In this document: one piece after another, positions 22,597-39,671 of the stretch
Layout of the letters: every line of letters starts with the position of its first letter
How positions within the stretch are numbered: the stretch's first letter is position 1
Notes under the pieces: generated by a model
Databases searched by the model: none
What the model saw: the letters and a program-made list of their open reading frames with translations, nothing else
Told to the model about the DNA's origin: nothing
From: Phycisphaerae bacterium
Lineage (GTDB): Bacteria > Planctomycetota > Phycisphaerae > Phycisphaerales > UBA1924
Assembly: GCA_030429705.1 (NCBI GenBank)
Contig: JAUIES010000002.1
Span: 436,001 to 500,000 of the forward strand
Direction of reading: 5' to 3'
Length of the DNA stretch: 64,000 nucleotides
Position numbers and translations under genes: made by a program

Positions 22597-22681
22597 TGGG
22601 CCCGGGGGGACTCGAACCCCCACTCCCGTTACGGGAAGCGGATTTTAAGTCCGCCGCGTCTGCCAATTCCGCCACGGGCCC
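22597..22681 (-). tRNA. tRNA-Leu (anticodon UAA)
   Basis: An 85-nt cloverleaf with a class II variable arm. The acceptor stem GGGCCCG/CGGGCCC, anticodon stem GCGGA/TCCGC around CTTAAAA, and T stem GGGGG/CCCCC around TTCGAGT all pair. The discriminator is A, and CCA is not encoded. Confidence 0.96.
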
Positions 22682-22917
22682 GGCATCCGGGAGAATAGTC
22701 GCCCCGTCTCAACGATTCCTTGATGCTGAGCGCGAAGACAGCCAGGACTGGCATCTGTAAAGCTTCATCGACCGCTGCCTGCCAATCGGAAGCGAGTTAC
22801 GCTCTTCGGTTGTGGAGATGGCTCGCGGTCATCGCGCGTGTGCCAGAGACTTGGCTACACAGATGTCTCGGGATCATCCAGCATTGGACGCTCTGCGAGA
22901 CCGAGACGGTTGTTGAA
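22682..22917. other. Spacer between the two tRNA-Leu genes
   Basis: A 236-nt spacer. I see no gene or structure in it that I can support. Confidence 0.4.
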
Positions 22918-23001
22918 TACCGAAGGGGGGACTCGAACCCCCAAGCCCTTTCGGGCAGCGGATTTTGAATCCGCCGCGTCTGCCAATTCCGCCACTTCGG
23001 C
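22918..23001 (-). tRNA. tRNA-Leu (anticodon CAA)
   Basis: An 84-nt cloverleaf with a class II variable arm. The anticodon stem GCGGA/TCCGC encloses TTCAAAA. The acceptor stem GCCGAAG pairs with CTTCGGT, leaving a G1-U72 wobble at the end. Discriminator A, no encoded CCA. The D-arm region is the same as in the neighbouring tRNA-Leu. Confidence 0.96.
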
Positions 23002-29180: not shown

Positions 29181-29573
29181 CTATGAGACTGTCGAGCCGG
29201 GTGCGATATCACCCATCGGTGTCATCAACACAACACTTCGATCGCCGTCTCCCTTTGGTGCATCACTTCCTGCGAGCAACATCCCTCGTGACTCTTCGCC
29301 GCGAATCTTCCGGGGCGCGAGATTGGCCACGATGACAATGCTTCGGCCGACCAAGTCTGCCGGTTCGTAGTGCCCCTTGATACCGGCACAAATCTGCCGA
29401 GGCGTGTCCGACCCGTCTTCAAGTTGCAACCGAAGCAAACGGTCTGCATTGGGATGTGGCTCGGCTGCAGTAATGCGGGCCACGCGGAGGTCCAGTTTTA
29501 CGAAATCGTCGTAAGTGACTTCCGGCTTGAATGCGGCTTGTTCAACACCTGACGCTGCACCTGATTCTGTCAT
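29181..29573 (-). CDS. tRNA-binding domain protein (MetG C-terminal / CsaA type)
   Basis: A 130-residue stand-alone OB-fold tRNA-binding domain. TYDDFVKLDLRVARITAAEP, PNADRLLRLQLEDG, QICAGIKGHYEPADLVGRSI and ESRGMLLAGSD are the conserved segments of the dimerisation domain of methionyl-tRNA synthetase. As a separate small protein it may serve a MetRS that lacks this domain; no metG is in the window. ATG 29573 has AGGGG about 6 nt upstream; the longer frame to 29675 is not needed. Confidence 0.9.
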   Translation of the reverse strand: MTESGAASGVEQAAFKPEVTYDDFVKLDLRVARITAAEPHPNADRLLRLQLEDGSDTPRQICAGIKGHYEPADLVGRSIVIVANLAPRKIRGEESRGMLLAGSDAPKGDGDRSVVLMTPMGDIAPGSTVS

Positions 29574-29616
29574 CGTGTACCCCTGTCTATGAATCCACCC
29601 GTCATGGGCGAAGACT

Positions 29617-30582
29617 CTAGGGAGCATCTTCTGGCGTGGTCGAATCTGATTCCCCGTTGTCGTCTGCATCCTCATGCGATTCAGTAGGCAGCGGCTCTAC
29701 CCATTGGCCATTTCGATACAACACCCGCTTGGGGTCAACACCAAAACGCAATGCGAGGTCGCCAATCTCAGGGTCGCGCATGGGCTCACCGAGATCAGCT
29801 GCGACCTGAGCGCCCCAGGACCTTTGACGACTGTTCAGCAGAAAAGACTCGAATCGGAGTTGTCCGATCAGTTCGTCTGGTGTCATTTCAGGTCCCGGAT
29901 TGCCACCACAGGTATAACACAATCGACGCTCGATGCGCCCGGTGTGTCGTTTGGTCACCACGCGATCGTTCCGGCACTCCGGGCATGGCCATTCCTTTGC
30001 CTGCCGTTCAAGTTCGGGGAGAATGTTCTGCTGAATGGTGCCAGTGATCAGTGCTGAATATCGCCTGATCAATCGTTGGACATCGTCCCGTCGCAGGTCG
30101 GCAACCGCGCGTGACCCCCAACCAGAGCGTATATGTCCAAGAGCCGTCGCCGTTTCAAAGGCGACATCGTCCGTCACGACCACATCCGTCGACCGGCTCC
30201 AATCGCGGATGCTGTAACGCGGATCAAGCATGCGAGCAATCGCCCACAGCACCCGTCGATCAGCATCGGCACGCGCCGTATCCGCCAGCGCGATGCACGC
30301 GCTGGCCGCCAGCGTCGCACCGTTCGGTTGATCGTGTGACTGCAAAATGGTGATGAGATAGAGACGCTGCACCAACTTGTAGTCTTGCTCAGTCCTCGCT
30401 TCGGCTGCCAACTCCTCACCGAGCGTGAAGTATGCTTCAGGCATGCTCGGGTCGAGTACTTCAAGTTGTTCTTCGATGTCAAGGAGCCCCGTTGGTTGAA
30501 CAGATGCCCCCCCATAAGCCGGACCAATCGGCAACGACATAATGACAACGAGTACCAATGTGAGGTATGGAACGCAGCTCAT
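29617..30582 (-). CDS. Secreted zinc-ribbon protein, last gene of the VWA/ExbBD operon
   Basis: A 321-residue exported protein (signal VLVVIMSLPIGPAYG). Residues of about 30-200 look helical and repeat-like. In the second half a zinc ribbon is formed by CPECRNDRVVTK and LCYTCGG, odd for an exported protein. The C-terminus is acidic (DADDNGESDSTTPEDAP). It overlaps the 898-residue gene by 4 nt (ATGA). No family is recognised. Confidence 0.75.
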   Translation of the reverse strand: MSCVPYLTLVLVVIMSLPIGPAYGGASVQPTGLLDIEEQLEVLDPSMPEAYFTLGEELAAEARTEQDYKLVQRLYLITILQSHDQPNGATLAASACIALADTARADADRRVLWAIARMLDPRYSIRDWSRSTDVVVTDDVAFETATALGHIRSGWGSRAVADLRRDDVQRLIRRYSALITGTIQQNILPELERQAKEWPCPECRNDRVVTKRHTGRIERRLCYTCGGNPGPEMTPDELIGQLRFESFLLNSRQRSWGAQVAADLGEPMRDPEIGDLALRFGVDPKRVLYRNGQWVEPLPTESHEDADDNGESDSTTPEDAP

Positions 30583-33275
30583 AATCCGTTCACTCCCAAC
30601 CGGATCTCCCAGAGTTTGGCCATGGCCCGTTCTGCAGCCGCGATTTGATAGAAGATATGTGATGCATCTCGCCGAGATTGACTCAGGTCCTCCAGGACAG
30701 TTTCAACAGCCGCACGATGGCTTGACTGTTCACTGACGACCACCACCGCCATTGTCTCGGCGAGCGCCAGTTGTTCGACGGCAAACTCTTGCACCATCCC
30801 GACCGCCAAACTGCGTCGACCTTCGAGTCGCCGCGCCACTTCGTTGATGGTCAACGCGAATCCCGCTGCAGGAATTCCCCGCTGCGCCGCCCGAGTCCAT
30901 CGAGCCCGCAGTTCTCGAACAGATCGTTCGGCAGAAGCAACAATGACATCACCCGAGTCTGTCATCGATAGCGCCGAACTCGTGCGCTGGTCATACGCCT
31001 CATCCAGAAGACGAGCAAGTTCATCCACACCAGCAACGATACTGTCTGCAGCGATGAGTTCGAGCAGTCGTTCGACGAGCGCCCGGCGAACAGCCAGACG
31101 CCATTCAGGATTGGTCCAATCGGGTAAGGGCTGCCCGGTGACACTGACGATCAACTCACTGATCATGGGGGTCGGCGCCATACGCGGCGATTCTTCGAGC
31201 AGCGCGTTGACAATCGCCGGCGACGAACCGAACAACTCGACGATGTCGCGCGCAGCGTCGCGCACGGCGCGACCACCACCGCGTAGCGCCGCTTCGACGA
31301 GGACTTCGGCATCGACGGAGCCCAGTTGACGGCGAGTGCTCGATCGAAGCTGAGCAAGGAGTCGCATTCGTTCCTCGGTATTCACACCTGCCAGCAAAAA
31401 CTGCTCGCCCCACCTGCCGTCTTGTGACTCACTGCCCATGTCAGCGCCAGACCCGTTTGGAGACGCACCCGGTTGGACCGCATAGTTGCTCAGAATGAGG
31501 TTGGCGGCTACGGCATCACCCTGCCAATGTGCCGATGCTGCAGCACTGATCCGAGCGTAACTGACTGCGATTCCGAGAGCGTCGTTCGAATCTCGCACAG
31601 ACTTGAGTTCGGCATCGAGTTGACCTGTTGCGTTGGTCAACGCATCGAGGATCGCGATATCGCTCCCCGGTGATTCGAGCCCCCACGCGAGCAGGTACTG
31701 GTCACGCAGACTTCGTCGATCAAGGTCGTTCGCCGATGCGGACAACACCATCGTTGGATCGATGTTGTCTGCGTCGGTCGCTGCGACGAGTGTCCGCGTG
31801 GCTGCACTCAATGAGGACGCGGGCACATTGCGATTGTCGAACTGCCGAACCATCCAGCGTTTGCTGTCATCGTTGTTGCGCCATGGCATCGCGCGAATCA
31901 CCGCCTCGATCGCTTCGTACATGTCATTGCGCGCTTCGGGGTCGATGGATTGCACAAGTAGTCGTTCCGCCCCCCTCGACAACAGACTGACTCTACGCTC
32001 GGCATCCGATGCCGTGACCGCGGCGGCGGCCCGAGCCCACCCGGTCCACGCCGATCCTCGTTCGTCGGGTTGGGTGGCCAACCCGTCCATGATCGACTGC
32101 AGGCAAGCCAGCGCACCTCCGGCAAAGCTGAGTTGGGCCGGTCGGCTGCCATCGAGTGAAGCCCCAAGCCAACGATCAATCAGCGCATGAGACTGTGCAG
32201 ACAGATCGCGTTCGCGGCGAATCCGCGTCAATGCACCGATGGACCACACTGCACGCTCGACCTCTTCCTGATCGAATGTGCCTCGACGCGATCGCAGCAC
32301 AATCGAGCCTCGGCCGACGGTGTTGAGGAGTGCTCGCGCATCGCCGGTCGGGCCGCCCAATCGGTACATCAACTCGACAATGGCATCCATCGCACGCGTC
32401 CGAACCGGAGCGGGCAACTCGAGCCAATCGGCAGAGAGCGCCTCCGTCGCGGCGACCGCTGACTGATGAGCCCCATCGAGATCCGACTCAGCAATCGAGA
32501 CCGCGTGAAGCAGAGTATCAAGGATCGCGTCACGCTCGACAACCATCCTTGGAACCGTTGTTGTCTGAGGCTTGGCTGATGCTGCATCCCCATCAGTCGG
32601 AAGTAAGCCTGGTTGAGACGGCGGCGCCGCATCCATGAGTGCTGATTGCGTCCCGGTATCTTTGACCAATGCTCGGTCACCCGTCACAACGAGCACCGTC
32701 CATACTGTGCCGACAATCATAAGAATTGCGACTAAACCGATGACGATCGACCAGTGGTTCCTGGAGACTGCGGAACGAGAGGGAAATGCGTCGTCGGGAG
32801 ATGCACCTTGAGCGGCGCTGGTATTTCGACGCCGCGTGGACATGTGCCGAAGTGTTTCGGCCACATCTGAGGCGCGCAGCCCGCGTGAGTGCGCGAGCGC
32901 CATGAGCCTTGGCAGACTTTTGCGTGTCCACCCGCCAAACATGGCGAGCGTGAGGATGACATCTTGTTCCAAGCCGACCATCGCAGCAGCGCGTGCACTC
33001 GAAGACTGCCCCCTGCGCAGGTGTGACCGAATGGCCGGGTTGAGTAACTGAGCCGTCGCCGCGTGCAGTGCCAGTCTGACTTCGTCAGAGGCTGGCGATT
33101 GTCCCTGGGGGTGGGCATCGATTGCCTGCATGCGTCGGTCGCGGGCCGAGATGATATCGAGATCCGAAAAGCCATCCGGTGGCAACCCCAGTAGGGCGCA
33201 AGGACCACCGCGCGCAGCCTCGGCCCCTAAAAACTGCTCCACAAAACTCACAGCATGGCGCCGCCCGGTGGTCAT
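30579..33275 (-). CDS. Large membrane protein with degenerate J-domain
   Basis: An 898-residue protein. Residues of about 26-89 (CALLGLPPDGFSDLDIISAR, AIDAHPQGQSP, LLNPAIRSHLRRG) follow the helix pattern of a DnaJ domain, but the catalytic HPD is HPQ at 55-57, so it should not stimulate Hsp70. One transmembrane helix lies at 176-197 (SIVIGLVAILMIVGTVWTVL). The roughly 700 residues outside are helical and repeat-like, with no family recognised. It overlaps both neighbours by 4 nt. Confidence 0.82.
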   Translation of the reverse strand: MTTGRRHAVSFVEQFLGAEAARGGPCALLGLPPDGFSDLDIISARDRRMQAIDAHPQGQSPASDEVRLALHAATAQLLNPAIRSHLRRGQSSSARAAAMVGLEQDVILTLAMFGGWTRKSLPRLMALAHSRGLRASDVAETLRHMSTRRRNTSAAQGASPDDAFPSRSAVSRNHWSIVIGLVAILMIVGTVWTVLVVTGDRALVKDTGTQSALMDAAPPSQPGLLPTDGDAASAKPQTTTVPRMVVERDAILDTLLHAVSIAESDLDGAHQSAVAATEALSADWLELPAPVRTRAMDAIVELMYRLGGPTGDARALLNTVGRGSIVLRSRRGTFDQEEVERAVWSIGALTRIRRERDLSAQSHALIDRWLGASLDGSRPAQLSFAGGALACLQSIMDGLATQPDERGSAWTGWARAAAAVTASDAERRVSLLSRGAERLLVQSIDPEARNDMYEAIEAVIRAMPWRNNDDSKRWMVRQFDNRNVPASSLSAATRTLVAATDADNIDPTMVLSASANDLDRRSLRDQYLLAWGLESPGSDIAILDALTNATGQLDAELKSVRDSNDALGIAVSYARISAAASAHWQGDAVAANLILSNYAVQPGASPNGSGADMGSESQDGRWGEQFLLAGVNTEERMRLLAQLRSSTRRQLGSVDAEVLVEAALRGGGRAVRDAARDIVELFGSSPAIVNALLEESPRMAPTPMISELIVSVTGQPLPDWTNPEWRLAVRRALVERLLELIAADSIVAGVDELARLLDEAYDQRTSSALSMTDSGDVIVASAERSVRELRARWTRAAQRGIPAAGFALTINEVARRLEGRRSLAVGMVQEFAVEQLALAETMAVVVVSEQSSHRAAVETVLEDLSQSRRDASHIFYQIAAAERAMAKLWEIRLGVNGL

Positions 33276-35959
33276 GGGTCTGACCCTCCGGGAAGGGGGA
33301 CCGCGGGCTGCAACTCAAGCCTGGCCTCCAGCGCTCGCAATTTTGGGCCGTACGGATCAGGGCCGTAACTCGGGTACATGACACGATGTTGCACCATCGC
33401 ATCACGAGCACCCTGCGGGTTCAAGTTGATCATCAACCGAATCGCGTTGTACCGCGCTTCAAACCATGGCTCTTCACCAGCGTGGTAAGTTGCTGAGAGC
33501 GCCGTCCACGCTTCGAGCGAGGCCTGCGGATCGCTGACCAACTCACTGAATCGTGCGAGAACTCGAAGCATGTCTTCGGTCCAAATGTCGCGTTCAAACC
33601 AGTCCTTGGACAATCGAAGCGCAAGCGAACGCATGTTCTCGTCCTGATGTTCATCCCAAAGCCATGCGGCAGCCTCCACCACATGATTGACGACACCCAA
33701 CAGCGCCTGCTGCGACAACCGATCACCCGGGTCATCCGGATTCGCCAGGATCCGTCCACCAAATCGGACGAGTGCCGTTGCCTCTGCCACGCCGGCATCT
33801 GGCATCGACCACGCCTGTGTTGCCGTGCGATAGAGCGTTCGGTCCGCGTGCCTGGCGAATCGTCCTCCGATTCGAGTCAGCCGCGTCAGTTGCGATTCCA
33901 CTTCGTCCATCTGTCCACGCGCCAGAGCAATCTGCAATCGGCGATAGGCGAGTTCACCTTCGAGTTCGCCAAGCCCCATGCCCATTTCGTTGGCAATGCG
34001 CTCAAGCGTTGTGATCGCACGATCGGCACGATCCAGTTCGGGTGCTCGACTTGAAAGCACAACATCGAGAATCTGGCGAACCAGGACGACGACAGATTGC
34101 GATGCCTTCACCTTGTCCTCGGGCTCACCTTCTGAAACCGCTGCTTCATCAATGCGCAGCAGTTCTTCCGCAACTGTCAAAAATCGTGACGCTTCCGCGT
34201 CTTTGCGTGATGCCGGCGACCCGCGATAAGCCCGATACAACAACCGGATCAGATGACGACGGGCAGTCGCGTAAATCGGACTCGAAGGATCGACCGCAAA
34301 CAACACTTCGATAGCATGATCCGTATCAGCCGTACTTGAGTCTGCCTGACGCAAAAGAAGGAGTGCCGCTCGTTCGACACTCGGGAACTCAGCAATGTAC
34401 AACCCGCTGAGACGCTCGGACCATTGACGGGCTTCTTCGCTACCGGCTTCAGCTGCTCGGTCGAGCGCCACCACCGCCATCCAGAGGGCTTCTTCACGAA
34501 TGCGATCATCGGTCGCGACAGCCGCACACTTTTCGAGTGCCTCGGCCGCATCCAGCATTCGACCACGATAGTAATCGCTCAGCCCCCAACTGAGCCCCGC
34601 ACGCGCGCGATCCATCGGATAGGAACGAGCATCTTCGGCTTCAAATGCACCGCGAAGCAAGTCGCTGCTCGACGCATACATTTGCGCGATTTCAATCGTT
34701 GTTGTCGGCTTCTTGTTGGTACCGTCCGCAGACTGATGCGCCTTCCTCGCTTCGTCATAGGCGAGAAGCCCACGCACATATCCAACGATAAACCCATCGC
34801 CGCCCAGCGGGAGCGTACCGAACTGCTTGAGCAACGAGAGCACCTGATTCACCTCGCCGCGCGCAACCAGATCACCGACACCGATCCCAGCCAGCCGTTC
34901 TGCCGGGCCGCCTCGGGTGGCACCAGACTGCACGCCCTCGCGCATCGCAAGAACCGCGAGCAATCGTGCATCGTGCGTATTCAACGACTCATCCCCGCGG
35001 CGCGTCGCGACCTCAGAAGCCAGATCGTCCCACCGACCAGCGTTCGCGAGCAACTCCATATTGCGCCCAAACAACTCATCGCGGACGGTCGGATGGAGTT
35101 CGGTCGACTGTCGCAACTGGCGCATCCAGGTCAGCGCACCGCCATGATCATCTTCGAGCGACTTTGAAAGGGCGATCGCCATCGCAGCCCGCGCAACATG
35201 TTCGTATCGGACAAGCGCTGACCCCAATTGCTCGATGGACGGCGATCGGCCTTCAGCGTTCAACATCCAACCAAGATCGCCTTGTGCACGATGGGCATCG
35301 TTTGCCCCCCCATCGAGCAAAGCCAAGTAATACCCCGACCAACCAGCGTAATAGAATGCCGCAGATCGTTCTGCGGTCGCCTGTTGCAACCGTGTTGCGA
35401 TCTCACCCTGAATCGAATCGTTTCCTCGTGACTGTTGACGCTTGAGCATGTCAACGCGACGGACGAGCGCTTGCCCTAAATCATCGAACGCTTCTCGCAC
35501 CTCGCGAAGCACCCGTTTGGCTTCAGCCACATCTTCCGGCGTGGATGACCCCAGTCGCCAGTGCTCCGCGATTGACTCCGCTGGTGCATAGCGCGCTTTG
35601 GCAAGTTTGATGCGCAGGCCGAACGAATCGATGTCGGGCACGAACTGAAACAAATGAGCGCTCAGATCTTCGAGTTCGCGCCTTCGTTCATTCGATATGT
35701 TCTCGCCGAGCATGCTGGCGTAGATGTCCGCCAATCGTTCAGCCATCTCAAGCCGATCGTCACCGGATGCACGACCGAGACGCGAACGCAACTGGGTCGC
35801 CTGCAGTTCCTCCAACTGATGCATCTGCATGTAGCGTTCGACGATCGCATCCGGCGAATCGGGGTTCACCAACTCATCCTGCGCCCGCGCGTCATGAAAC
35901 GCAAATACGACTGCAACCACTGACACAATCGCTCTAATTGGAACCACTCGACGGCACAT
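33272..35959 (-). CDS. Large secreted helical-repeat (TPR-like) protein
   Basis: An 895-residue exported protein; signal peptide CRRVVPIRAIVSVVAVVFAF with a cut after ARA. The rest is almost all alpha-helical, with TPR-like segments (SDYYRGRMLDAAEALEKCAA, ARKDAEASRFLTVAEELLRI), suited to bind proteins in the periplasm. ATG 35959 is chosen because AGAGGA lies 4-5 nt upstream and the signal peptide starts there; it overlaps the end of the ExbD gene by 26 nt. It ends in an ATGA overlap with the 898-residue gene. Confidence 0.82.
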   Translation of the reverse strand: MCRRVVPIRAIVSVVAVVFAFHDARAQDELVNPDSPDAIVERYMQMHQLEELQATQLRSRLGRASGDDRLEMAERLADIYASMLGENISNERRRELEDLSAHLFQFVPDIDSFGLRIKLAKARYAPAESIAEHWRLGSSTPEDVAEAKRVLREVREAFDDLGQALVRRVDMLKRQQSRGNDSIQGEIATRLQQATAERSAAFYYAGWSGYYLALLDGGANDAHRAQGDLGWMLNAEGRSPSIEQLGSALVRYEHVARAAMAIALSKSLEDDHGGALTWMRQLRQSTELHPTVRDELFGRNMELLANAGRWDDLASEVATRRGDESLNTHDARLLAVLAMREGVQSGATRGGPAERLAGIGVGDLVARGEVNQVLSLLKQFGTLPLGGDGFIVGYVRGLLAYDEARKAHQSADGTNKKPTTTIEIAQMYASSSDLLRGAFEAEDARSYPMDRARAGLSWGLSDYYRGRMLDAAEALEKCAAVATDDRIREEALWMAVVALDRAAEAGSEEARQWSERLSGLYIAEFPSVERAALLLLRQADSSTADTDHAIEVLFAVDPSSPIYATARRHLIRLLYRAYRGSPASRKDAEASRFLTVAEELLRIDEAAVSEGEPEDKVKASQSVVVLVRQILDVVLSSRAPELDRADRAITTLERIANEMGMGLGELEGELAYRRLQIALARGQMDEVESQLTRLTRIGGRFARHADRTLYRTATQAWSMPDAGVAEATALVRFGGRILANPDDPGDRLSQQALLGVVNHVVEAAAWLWDEHQDENMRSLALRLSKDWFERDIWTEDMLRVLARFSELVSDPQASLEAWTALSATYHAGEEPWFEARYNAIRLMINLNPQGARDAMVQHRVMYPSYGPDPYGPKLRALEARLELQPAVPLPGGSDP

Positions 35960-36356
35960 AGGTCCTCTTCGTAAAACCCGCATCATGGGCTGCTTGCAGC
36001 GCGGTCGCAGCCGCTTGAATCGGTACTCGATCATCCACCTTCACGGCCACGCCGGCCTCCTTGGGCAGTTGCGTCAAGATGGCCTCGAGCGCTTGACCGG
36101 TAAACACCGCTCGTTCGCCGATGCGAAACCCGACACGACCCTGGATCATTTCGACAGACACCACCTGAGGCTGCAACTCAGAAATGCTCGAACCAGACTG
36201 CTCACTTTGGATCGTCGCCTGGAGTCGGTCTTCACTCTGGCTGAAGTTTGCCGTGAGCAGAAAGAAGATGAGCAACAGAAAAACAACATCGATCATGCTC
36301 GTCATGGGGACGGACCCGAGTGCGGATGCTTGCAAGCGTGCCGGTGACATTCTCAT
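35934..36356 (-). CDS. ExbD/TolR-family protein (second copy)
   Basis: A 140-residue single-helix protein. The helix PMTSMIDVVFLLLIFFLLTA carries the conserved Asp (D23) that takes part in proton flow in ExbD/TolR. The periplasmic domain is short (RVGFRIGERAVFTGQALEAI, VAVKVDDRVPIQ). It overlaps the first exbD copy by 4 nt. Two exbD genes after one exbB gene are frequent in planctomycetes and Bacteroidetes; a mixed dimer is possible. Confidence 0.9.
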   Translation of the reverse strand: MRMSPARLQASALGSVPMTSMIDVVFLLLIFFLLTANFSQSEDRLQATIQSEQSGSSISELQPQVVSVEMIQGRVGFRIGERAVFTGQALEAILTQLPKEAGVAVKVDDRVPIQAAATALQAAHDAGFTKRTYVPSSGSN

Positions 36357-36784
36357 GGCGCCCCCCCGCTCGGATCAGTCGTCCCGATGCGCCAGCGGCG
36401 AACGCCTCGCTCGCGCAGATCGAGCGCCAGACCGTTGAGATGCCGCGCCGCCAGTGAACGATCGGGACGAACCAGAATCGTGACTTGATCAGGTCCTCCG
36501 CTGCGCCCGATCTCTGTATCGACCAGCCGCAGAAACTGAGCCCGGCTCATGGTTCGGCCATCGACAATGAGCGAACCGTCGTCAGCCAGATCAACAGCAA
36601 ATGAAGGCGGTTCTTCCACCGGCGACTTCTCGCCAGCCTCGAGAGGTAACGCCACCTCGGTCTGTGTGATCTGTCCAAACTGTGATGTAAACATGAAAAA
36701 GATGATGAGTTGCAAGACCACATCAATCATCGGGGTGAGATTGAAACTGAGAACCTTGGGACGGGATGGACGCGCGAGTTGCAT
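36353..36784 (-). CDS. ExbD/TolR-family protein (first copy)
   Basis: A 143-residue protein. The helix NLTPMIDVVLQLIIFFMFTS holds the conserved Asp (D21). The periplasmic part (LIVDGRTMSRAQFLRLVDTE, VTILVRPDRSLAARHLNGLA) is the usual ExbD fold. ATG 36784 lies one base after the stop of the tolQ-like gene; the frame upstream is a read of that gene. Confidence 0.92.
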   Translation of the reverse strand: MQLARPSRPKVLSFNLTPMIDVVLQLIIFFMFTSQFGQITQTEVALPLEAGEKSPVEEPPSFAVDLADDGSLIVDGRTMSRAQFLRLVDTEIGRSGGPDQVTILVRPDRSLAARHLNGLALDLRERGVRRWRIGTTDPSGGAP

Positions 36785-36785
36785 G

Positions 36786-37499
36786 TCAGGTGTTCCGCCC
36801 CGGGCCGTTGCTTGGCGCACCAGCGCCAGACTCGAGATGTGCCGCCAGGTCTTCGATGATCTGCCCGACTTCGTCAGCGAGCGTGTCGATTCGATTCCTC
36901 AGGAAGGTGTACGCTGCAGTCGCTGGAATCGCAACGATCAGACCGAGCACTGTGGTAATCAAAGCCTGCGAGATATTGCCGGCGAGTGCATCAGGACGAA
37001 CCGGCCCGTCTGCCGCCTGAATGGCATCGAATGCACCAACCATGCCGATGACGGTTCCAAGCAGCCCGAGCATCGGCGCGATCGCAGCGATCAGATTGAT
37101 CCCATCTGTCAAACGATACAAACGGGCCACCTGCAATTGCCCGACTTCCTCGAGGGCTGCTTTGAGTTCGAGAAAGCCGAACGGACTTCGGCTGCAACGA
37201 ATCAGCGCCGAACCCACAATCCTGGTCAGGAACGACCCGTGGTCCGGGCTCTGGCAAAAGGCGATCGCCTGTTCGACCTGCCCCTCTCGCAGGTGCCGGT
37301 CGAGCGTATCGATTGATTCCGGGGGGGCGAGCGCGGCTCGCCGGACCCGAATCAACTGTGCGACGATCAGAACAACAGCAACGAACGAGAGCATGATGAT
37401 GACCAGCCCCACCGGTCCACCCTGCGCCACATAGGTTAGCAGGCTCTTGCTGGTTGCACTGCTCGCAGGAGCTGCCAAGGTAATCAAATCGTGATGCAT
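36786..37499 (-). CDS. MotA/TolQ/ExbB proton-channel family protein
   Basis: A 237-residue channel subunit with three transmembrane helices (about 28-50, 125-150, 165-190). The conserved segments NLIAAIAPMLGLLGTVIGMV and NISQALITTVLGLIVAIPAT are present with the threonines of the proton path. With ExbD partners it turns proton flow into motion. The start ATG 37499 has a near-perfect site GAGGTGAT just upstream and lies one base after the previous stop. Confidence 0.94.
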   Translation of the reverse strand: MHHDLITLAAPASSATSKSLLTYVAQGGPVGLVIIMLSFVAVVLIVAQLIRVRRAALAPPESIDTLDRHLREGQVEQAIAFCQSPDHGSFLTRIVGSALIRCSRSPFGFLELKAALEEVGQLQVARLYRLTDGINLIAAIAPMLGLLGTVIGMVGAFDAIQAADGPVRPDALAGNISQALITTVLGLIVAIPATAAYTFLRNRIDTLADEVGQIIEDLAAHLESGAGAPSNGPGRNT

Positions 37500-37500
37500 A

Positions 37501-38697
37501 TCACCTCTCAATGGTTCGTGTCGTTCGTATGGATGTCGCTTGCAGACTATTCAAATGAGAGCGTACCGCATCCAGATTGGTGGCGGCGTGGGTGCTATAG
37601 GCATCGCGCAATTCGGTAAACAATGAGTTCGCACCCGCAGCATCACCCAATGCATCGAGCGCCAGGGCCGACTCTGCCAAGGCGATCCCCGCGAGATATG
37701 GTTGACTCTTGCCAAAACGCGCAGGCAAATGCAGTAACTGAATCACACCCCGGCGTTGTGATTCTCGATCAGACTCGCGCAAGAGCGAACGGCCGATACC
37801 AAGCCGACACCAGGCTTCGATCCACGCGTGATCGGCACTTTCTCGACGGGTTCCGGCCATCTCTGATTCGAGCGTGCTTCGAGCCGCTTGTCGCTGTTCA
37901 GCATCACCAACTCGGGCAAGAACAATCGCGTGCACCAGTCGCACGCCGTCGTCAGCAAGATCAGTCTTGGTCAGTGACAAGTCCGGCGAGCCAATCGTCA
38001 AACCACACTCAAATCGGGCAGCGTGTCGATAGAGACGCTCAAGAATTTCCGCACGCTTGGGGCCGATGTCTTGCGATTGATCCCACACGACGATCGGTTC
38101 GGATCGGGCAAAGACTTCGACCGCTGGGGTCTTCATCCAGACAGGAGCGAGCGAGGGGACCAACCCGGTCTCCTGATCACACGCCGGTCGCAGAGCCCCG
38201 ACCATGCGTGACTGATACGGACCCGCCTGAGCCGAAACCAGATACGCGAGCCACGGGCGTATCGCCGCGGTCTGTGCGCTTCGACGCAATCGACATCGCA
38301 TGAGTCCTTCCGCGACCATCGATGCCATGTCGCTGCTCAGACCTTCATAGACCGGGTACAACTCTTCAAAGATTGGTTCCGCTGTGACCGCGTCGCCTCG
38401 TTCGAGTCTCGTCCGCGCTCGCCATGCGAGTCGACCGAGTCGCAGGAACGGCTCCGCCTCTTCTGCATGCGCGCCGGTCAGTGATCGTACGAAGTCCCAT
38501 CGAACAGTTCGTTGAACCCCGAACGGGTCCTCGAACACGATTCCGCCATAATCCAAATCGAGGATCTCGCCATCCGGCACTTCGCGGCCGCTCCATAACT
38601 GCACCTCGGGCACCGCTGCGTCATCCGGGGTCGCGTCTTGTGCGTAAGCAACACACATGACCAGGCACACAAACGACGCAAACCAGCGGAGACTCAC
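37501..38697 (-). CDS. Secreted protein of unknown function in the VWA/ExbBD operon
   Basis: A 398-residue exported protein (signal SLRWFASFVCLVMCVAYAQ). Early residues VQLWSGREVPDGEILDLDYG and GVQRTVRWDFVRSLTG look like a small beta domain of the kind seen in planctomycete proteins that sense a default value; the rest is helical and repeat-like. It overlaps the VWA gene by 4 nt. No family recognised. Confidence 0.78.
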   Translation of the reverse strand: MSLRWFASFVCLVMCVAYAQDATPDDAAVPEVQLWSGREVPDGEILDLDYGGIVFEDPFGVQRTVRWDFVRSLTGAHAEEAEPFLRLGRLAWRARTRLERGDAVTAEPIFEELYPVYEGLSSDMASMVAEGLMRCRLRRSAQTAAIRPWLAYLVSAQAGPYQSRMVGALRPACDQETGLVPSLAPVWMKTPAVEVFARSEPIVVWDQSQDIGPKRAEILERLYRHAARFECGLTIGSPDLSLTKTDLADDGVRLVHAIVLARVGDAEQRQAARSTLESEMAGTRRESADHAWIEAWCRLGIGRSLLRESDRESQRRGVIQLLHLPARFGKSQPYLAGIALAESALALDALGDAAGANSLFTELRDAYSTHAATNLDAVRSHLNSLQATSIRTTRTIER

Positions 38698-39671
38698 GGG
38701 CTCGCCCTTACATGCTTGTACAGCCCCCCCGAGTCCCGCGCAATATCGCGCAGCCTGTTCTCGACTTGCGCCCGGATCGCGGCGTTACCGATGTCACCAA
38801 ACATGATGCAATGGACGGGAACCTTGGTTCGGCCGTTCAGTTGCCGCACCGCGCCAACCACCTCGTCTGAAAACTCGCCGTCGGTCATGAAGTAGATTGC
38901 GTCCGGCCTCGGCCTCATCTTGAAAATCATCTCAAATGCGCCCAGGGGCTGCGTGCTGCCATTGGCTGTGACATCCATGATGTCGCGGCGCAGGCTGATC
39001 TTCGTGCGCTTGTCAGTCTGATACCACTTGACACGACCAGTCAATGGCGACGGGCCGTTCGAATACAGCACCACACAGACCTCGCCGCTCTCACTCATCG
39101 CTGAAATGGACCGAGCGAGTTCGGCCTTGGTCTGATCCATCTTGCCGCCCGAGTTCATCGAACTGGACCGGTCGACGATGTATGCAAATCGGCTCCCCTG
39201 CGCTTCGACGCCGAAGAAACTCGCGCCGTCGCCACTGAGTCCTCCACCACCCGATGTTCCGTCGTTGAGTGAACCCGTCGAGATATCGCCGCCGCCCGAT
39301 GAGACATCGAGATCGACCATCTCCTGCATCAACGCGTCTATTTCGCCGCCATCCTGCTCGCTGACCAACTCGATGTCTTCAAGGCTTGGCGAGGCGAGTT
39401 CCGGAGCATGGGTTGCGCTGACCCGGGCGGCATCGTCGGTCATTTCGGCGAGTTCGGCTTCGCTCATGACTGCGAAATCAACCGTTTCTGCCCCACTGCC
39501 CCCTGCGTCGCCACCTTCATATGTCACCGTGAACACCGCGGCGATCAGCAGCGCCACGACATGAACCATGACGCTGGCACCGATTCCCACGAAAGTTGCT
39601 CGGCGAAACCAGAGCCAGCCCTGGGCGCCCTTTTCGCTCGTTCGACTTGCGGTTTCCGTGTGATCGTGCAT
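38694..39671 (-). CDS. VWA-domain protein on a TonB/TolA-like transmembrane helix
   Basis: A 325-residue protein, first gene of the operon. About 25 cytoplasmic residues lead into one helix (about 26-48) with S33-V-M-V-H37, the S-x3-H pattern of the TonB anchor helix that couples to ExbB/ExbD. A low-complexity Gly/Asp/Glu linker (about 52-155) follows, then a von Willebrand A domain with a full metal site: D167-R-S-S-S171, T240 and D264 (YFMTDGEFSDE). So the domain should bind Mg and a ligand. No Shine-Dalgarno is seen at ATG 39671. There is no TonB or TolA C-terminal domain. Confidence 0.88.
   Translation of the reverse strand: MHDHTETASRTSEKGAQGWLWFRRATFVGIGASVMVHVVALLIAAVFTVTYEGGDAGGSGAETVDFAVMSEAELAEMTDDAARVSATHAPELASPSLEDIELVSEQDGGEIDALMQEMVDLDVSSGGGDISTGSLNDGTSGGGGLSGDGASFFGVEAQGSRFAYIVDRSSSMNSGGKMDQTKAELARSISAMSESGEVCVVLYSNGPSPLTGRVKWYQTDKRTKISLRRDIMDVTANGSTQPLGAFEMIFKMRPRPDAIYFMTDGEFSDEVVGAVRQLNGRTKVPVHCIMFGDIGNAAIRAQVENRLRDIARDSGGLYKHVRASP

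Follow-up and report, generated by a model that had tools for sequence, protein, structure and literature searches.

Few proton-driven transducers are understood so far: TonB, TolA, the Glt transducer, and the flagellar stators. Cryo-EM places the Ser-His pair of TonB and TolA in contact with Ser34/Trp38 of ExbB and with Ser28/Trp32 of TolQ, respectively (PMC12215075). In Myxococcus, the Agl-Glt machinery is made of aglR, aglQ, and aglS together with gltG and the TPR proteins gltC/D/E, and its core is also found in non-gliding bacteria (PMC3169522). In Campylobacter, stators are scaffolded by PflA, a TPR superhelix (PMC12222027). Closest to the locus presented here, the main text of a 2025 paper in Mol Biol Evol describes an inner-membrane vWA class from the PVC group, whose members have Ser-His helices and are encoded beside tolQ, two tolR genes, and a TPR gene (PMC12204202). 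In that text the vWA proteins are proposed to be force transducers, gliding is suggested as a possible role, and no phenotype is reported.

The operon studied here lies in a 64,000-nucleotide stretch of a Phycisphaerales genome (the window), itself part of a 791-kb contig in a genome of 3.49 Mb. Its closest named relatives are Phycisphaerales MAGs, with a best ExbB identity of 68%. All eight genes of the predicted cluster are confirmed as open frames, tightly packed on the minus strand between positions 29617 and 39671. The first, at 38694..39671, encodes a 325-residue VWA protein with a short cytosolic N-terminus, one transmembrane helix, a linker, and a C-terminal VWA domain (PF00092, E 1.4e-6). 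It is followed by SEC (37501..38697), a secreted protein of 398 residues. The motor genes come next: an ExbB/TolQ-like subunit at 36786..37511 (241 residues from a TTG, with an in-frame ATG at 37499; PF01618, E 1.5e-26), a first ExbD/TolR-like subunit at 36353..36820 (a 155-residue frame whose likely start is the ATG at 36784), and a second at 35934..36356. Both ExbD proteins match PF02472 (4.2e-17 and 1.2e-15), so that the VWA, ExbB, and two ExbD assignments are all backed by Pfam. Three further genes complete the operon: the secreted G920 (33272..35959, 895 residues, with an open frame reaching 36034), the one-helix membrane protein G898 (30579..33275, 898 residues), and the secreted ZNR (29617..30582, 321 residues). 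Pfam and NCBIfam hold no family for the 398-, 895/920-, 898-, and 321-residue proteins, and for G898 and ZNR, searches of Pfam, NCBIfam, and PDB sequences yielded no family and nothing beyond faint hints of TPR or zinc ribbon.

The genes overlap by 4 nt at four of the seven junctions, through GTGA between VWA and SEC and through ATGA at ExbD1/ExbD2, G920/G898, and G898/ZNR. The ExbD2/G920 overlap is 26 nt, and SEC/ExbB and ExbB/ExbD1 lie within about 2 nt provided that internal ATGs are used as starts. The tight junctions of the original prediction thus stand, the remaining three being nearly as tight. The operon is followed at 29181-29675 by a stand-alone tRNA-binding protein resembling the MetG C-terminal domain, which is the same neighbor in many relatives. 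Elsewhere in the window, two adjacent tRNA-Leu genes with anticodons TAA and CAA occupy 22597-23001.

Judged by its helix, fold, and gene neighbors, the operon belongs to the vWA force-transducer class. As in the main text of PMC12204202, it comes from the Planctomycetes and combines a tethered vWA domain, a Ser-His helix, and genes for TolQ, two TolR, and TPR proteins; a stretch after the helix may correspond to the motor-box strand. The machine is therefore not “undescribed” as originally predicted, since a 2025 publication already presents vWA transducers accompanied by TolQ, two TolR, and a TPR gene. It differs in that there are eight genes here, including G920, G898, and ZNR, whereas one TPR gene is mentioned in that main text; in that the VWA gene comes first here and last there; and in that the motor genes are separable here. 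Relative to that text, what is new is the eight-gene form, the giant proteins, and a natural experiment in which the motor genes are missing, the transducer class itself having already been named. With TonB-ExbBD and TolA-TolQR, the operon shares proton motor subunits with their key residues and a Ser-x3-His docking pair, but it has a VWA head, no TonB/TolA C-terminal domain, and two different ExbD genes. TolB and Pal are encoded with tolQRA in the Tol-Pal system, and neither is found in the window operon. The likeness to the Agl-Glt core is one of kind, limited to the parts list: a single TolQ with two TolR, a transducer with one helix, and several secreted TPR proteins. The transducer there is an FHA-TonB protein (GltG), whereas here it would be a VWA protein with no TonB domain. 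By parts list, Agl-Glt appears as the closest experimentally studied analog. Like Campylobacter PflA/PflB, the operon includes a predicted large periplasmic TPR superhelix; there it is flagellar and tied to a MotA/ExbB-type motor, while its resemblance to G920 is a generic fold match only.

The transmembrane helix of the VWA protein carries a Ser33-x3-His37 pair that is invariant in all 26 close orthologs, while nearly all other positions of the helix vary. The pair is present in 63 of 67 wider VWA matches, and a 15-member planctomycete VWA alignment, with sequences 19-44% identical to the window protein, shows no variation at S33 or H37. In a comparison set of 124 hydrophobic segments from the six remaining non-ExbB operon proteins of the same genomes, the pair does not occur. 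The Leu-Ser half of the SHLS motif is absent or not conserved in the VWA helix among the 26 orthologs. On the motor side, ExbB S42, which corresponds to TolQ Ser28 and ExbB Ser34, is invariant (28/28), the HMMER alignment around it being a low-scoring segment. The pore threonines T153 and T187 are likewise invariant in the 28 sequences, as is P196, and so are the transmembrane aspartates D33 of ExbD1 and D23 of ExbD2 (27/27 each). The docking Trp partner of ExbB/TolQ is not kept, a V or L being found at the aligned position. In the VWA domain, the MIDAS is intact and conserved (D167-x-S169-x-S171, T240, D264), and past the helix the linker has a single conserved hydrophobic stretch, V64-M69, in the position that the motor box takes in TonB and TolA; it is read as a putative strand from the sequence. 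Because the Ser-x3-His pair is invariant, and because the matching ExbB serine, the ExbD aspartates, and the MIDAS are conserved with it, the VWA protein is probably the force transducer, replacing TonB or TolA. The original proposal of the VWA protein as the likely moving part thus gains strong independent support from the invariant Ser-x3-His and its matching invariant ExbB serine.

Several loci vary on this arrangement. Tandem VWA transducer genes lie upstream of a single ExbB-ExbD-ExbD set in L061 and L063; in L061 the docking Ser is replaced by Ala in both proteins and the His is kept. In L184 (13176-14333), the docking His of the operon VWA is an Asn (VSLAANVLL), and the motor genes are adjacent nonetheless. 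In distant planctomycetes (loci L251, L257, L258), a Ser-His VWA gene is followed directly or one gene on by a same-strand protein of 1,171-1,565 residues, and no motor gene was detected within the stretch fetched.

In relatives, about 100 regions around the motor genes, the VWA gene, or G920 were collected, and each of their ORFs was scored with the eight protein profiles. The exact order VWA-SEC-ExbB-ExbD-ExbD-G920-G898-ZNR is kept in at least 31 loci, the window included, and in three more it is broken only by a spurious overlapping ORF. Since the same genes stand in the same order in 31 loci, the eight-gene set is not a chance grouping. Most of these loci are from the Phycisphaerales and are distributed over its families f1-f4; copies in other parts of the phylum are rarer. 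Locus L190, from a different family of the class, unites the VWA, motor, G920, G898, and ZNR genes. A more distant planctomycete has all eight genes (L245) and, in L244, a further VWA-motor-giant set that is more divergent. Across the Planctomycetota, a simpler core is seen: VWA, in many cases a SEC-like gene, then ExbB and two ExbD, with a large gene often next in line. Within the order, the ExbB proteins encoded in the operon group in a single clade (support 100/100). G920 was found in every genome tested from the window's own family (27/27 in the class sample, 6/6 of the chosen genomes, and further ones besides).

The motor genes can nevertheless be missing. Five genomes of the same family (G004, G012, G015, G019, G122) show VWA-SEC-G920-G898-ZNR, a string that lacks the three motor genes in its middle, and a sixth genome (G030) shows VWA-G920-G898-ZNR. 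The Ser-His pair is retained in the VWA proteins of all six. Two of them (G012, G030) carry, at another place in the genome, an ExbB-ExbD-ExbD set that belongs to the same clade. The other four have distant ExbB proteins only (28-36% identity) and no close ortholog, and in G015 there is one detectable ExbB in all. Since five genomes keep the block without its motor genes and with the Ser-His pair intact, this suggests that the core unit passed on by inheritance is the VWA protein with its envelope partners, and that the motor is a separable, exchangeable module. As the VWA block persists in four genomes that have no close ExbB ortholog, the dedicated motor is not indispensable, and where it is missing the VWA protein would use another ExbBD motor. 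The idea that tight coupling implies a single complex with set proportions is weakened accordingly, as six genomes hold a VWA block with no motor genes in it.

The AF2 model of G920 is an all-helical superhelix of about 40 helices, arranged as repeated helix pairs in a TPR solenoid (mean pLDDT 86.0), and that of SEC starts with a small beta barrel and continues into TPR-like helices (mean pLDDT 84.6). The structural neighbors of both are generic TPR proteins of many functions, and for this reason the fold names no function for either. The Campylobacter flagellar periplasmic scaffold 9hmf_K is among the Foldseek matches of G920; it is not in the best 50 rows of the VIA-align list, which is led by unrelated TPR proteins. 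G898 has a cytosolic domain, a transmembrane helix, and a periplasmic region of about 700 residues. Its cytosolic N-terminus resembles a J domain in which the Asp of HPD is absent; the match is weak in a profile comparison with J-domain sequences (E 4.5e-4, probability 14%), and Pfam DnaJ is found in one of 15 members (E 0.18). ZNR does have the expected CxxC..CxxC zinc ribbon in its window copy, but the cysteines are lost in several orthologs and are not a feature of the family, so a zinc-dependent role as a family trait was rejected. The view of the giants as scaffold or load would fit the predicted TPR superhelix and the linkage to VWA.

The operon encodes no TonB/TolA C-terminal domain, receptor, or Pal; the domain search bears out this part of the original prediction, the VWA protein matching VWA and not PF03544. 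Three OmpA-domain proteins are encoded elsewhere in the host genome and none in the operon. Pfam models for TonB_C, TonB receptor barrels, and TolB_N have no match in the host, the genomes searched being near-complete but not closed, and TolB_N is found in none of 41 genomes. A plain replacement of Ton was rejected, as some families of the order hold both Ton components and the operon. Besides the operon copy, the host has two further ExbB genes. One is in a second ExbB-ExbD-ExbD set (L066:11950-14302, contig C4) located directly after a TsaE-YacG gene, with no transducer gene beside it. The other (L067:12971-13711, contig C7) has no adjacent ExbD, and its neighbors are an M60 peptidase gene, an S74-chaperone protein, and isoprenoid genes. 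The P. limnophila essentiality paper does not name ExbB/ExbD in its main text.

From these data a model can be proposed, and it is quite likely that the operon encodes an envelope machine of the vWA force-transducer class, powered by the proton-motive force. ExbB and the two ExbD proteins would form a motor of the 5:2 type in the inner membrane. The VWA protein would dock on the edge of this motor through the Ser-His face of its single helix, and the short strand after the helix would contact ExbD. The movement of the motor would then be carried over the periplasm to the metal-binding VWA head. This head may bind the giants and act on an assembly of G920, SEC, G898, and ZNR, which would link the inner membrane, the wall, and the outer membrane.

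What such a machine would do can be approached by weighing several readings. As G920 is in every own-family genome tested, and as TonB, its receptors, and TolB are undetected in the host, our best guess is a Tol-like coupling of the envelope, which is our first choice over a machine of surface or motility type, like the Agl-Glt core, that would move or assemble surface material. The latter, to which we give a modest chance, draws on a parts list of the same kind, on the presence of that core in non-gliding bacteria (PMC3169522), and on the main text of PMC12204202, where gliding is raised as a possible role; however, the head is VWA here and not TonB with FHA, and the constancy of G920 within the family suits housekeeping better than a motility accessory. 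An uptake system like TonB, with its outer-membrane partner encoded elsewhere, would have the motor and docking chemistry of Ton, yet neither the beta-barrel of a TonB receptor nor a TonB C-terminal domain could be detected in the host genome, and none is in the operon, which makes it very improbable.

The periplasmic TPR proteins could instead be a static scaffold that gathers or anchors motors as PflA/PflB do for MotAB, the VWA protein being a ligand-gated regulator or brake. The Foldseek match of G920 to 9hmf_K recalls the stator-scaffolding superhelix of PflA (PMC12222027), and the intact MIDAS would suit a regulator. But the TPR match is generic, with 9hmf outside the best 50 rows of the VIA-align list; the invariant Ser-His is a feature of transducers; and a VWA block that persists without its motor genes would be odd for a motor scaffold. 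A static scaffold is thus rather unlikely, and the transducer model with a Tol-like role is preferred.

For the recently proposed vWA class, the operon supplies a complete and conserved list of parts, and it shows which of these stay together and which are exchangeable. It also names the exact residues for testing force transfer across the planctomycete envelope, where TolB is undetected. We tentatively raise the possibility that the operon is the family's main proton-driven coupler between the inner membrane and the outer envelope. It would then do the housekeeping work of Tol-Pal using parts unrelated to it, with a VWA head standing in for the TolA C-terminus and the TPR giants for TolB-Pal, and would be driven by an exchangeable ExbBD motor.
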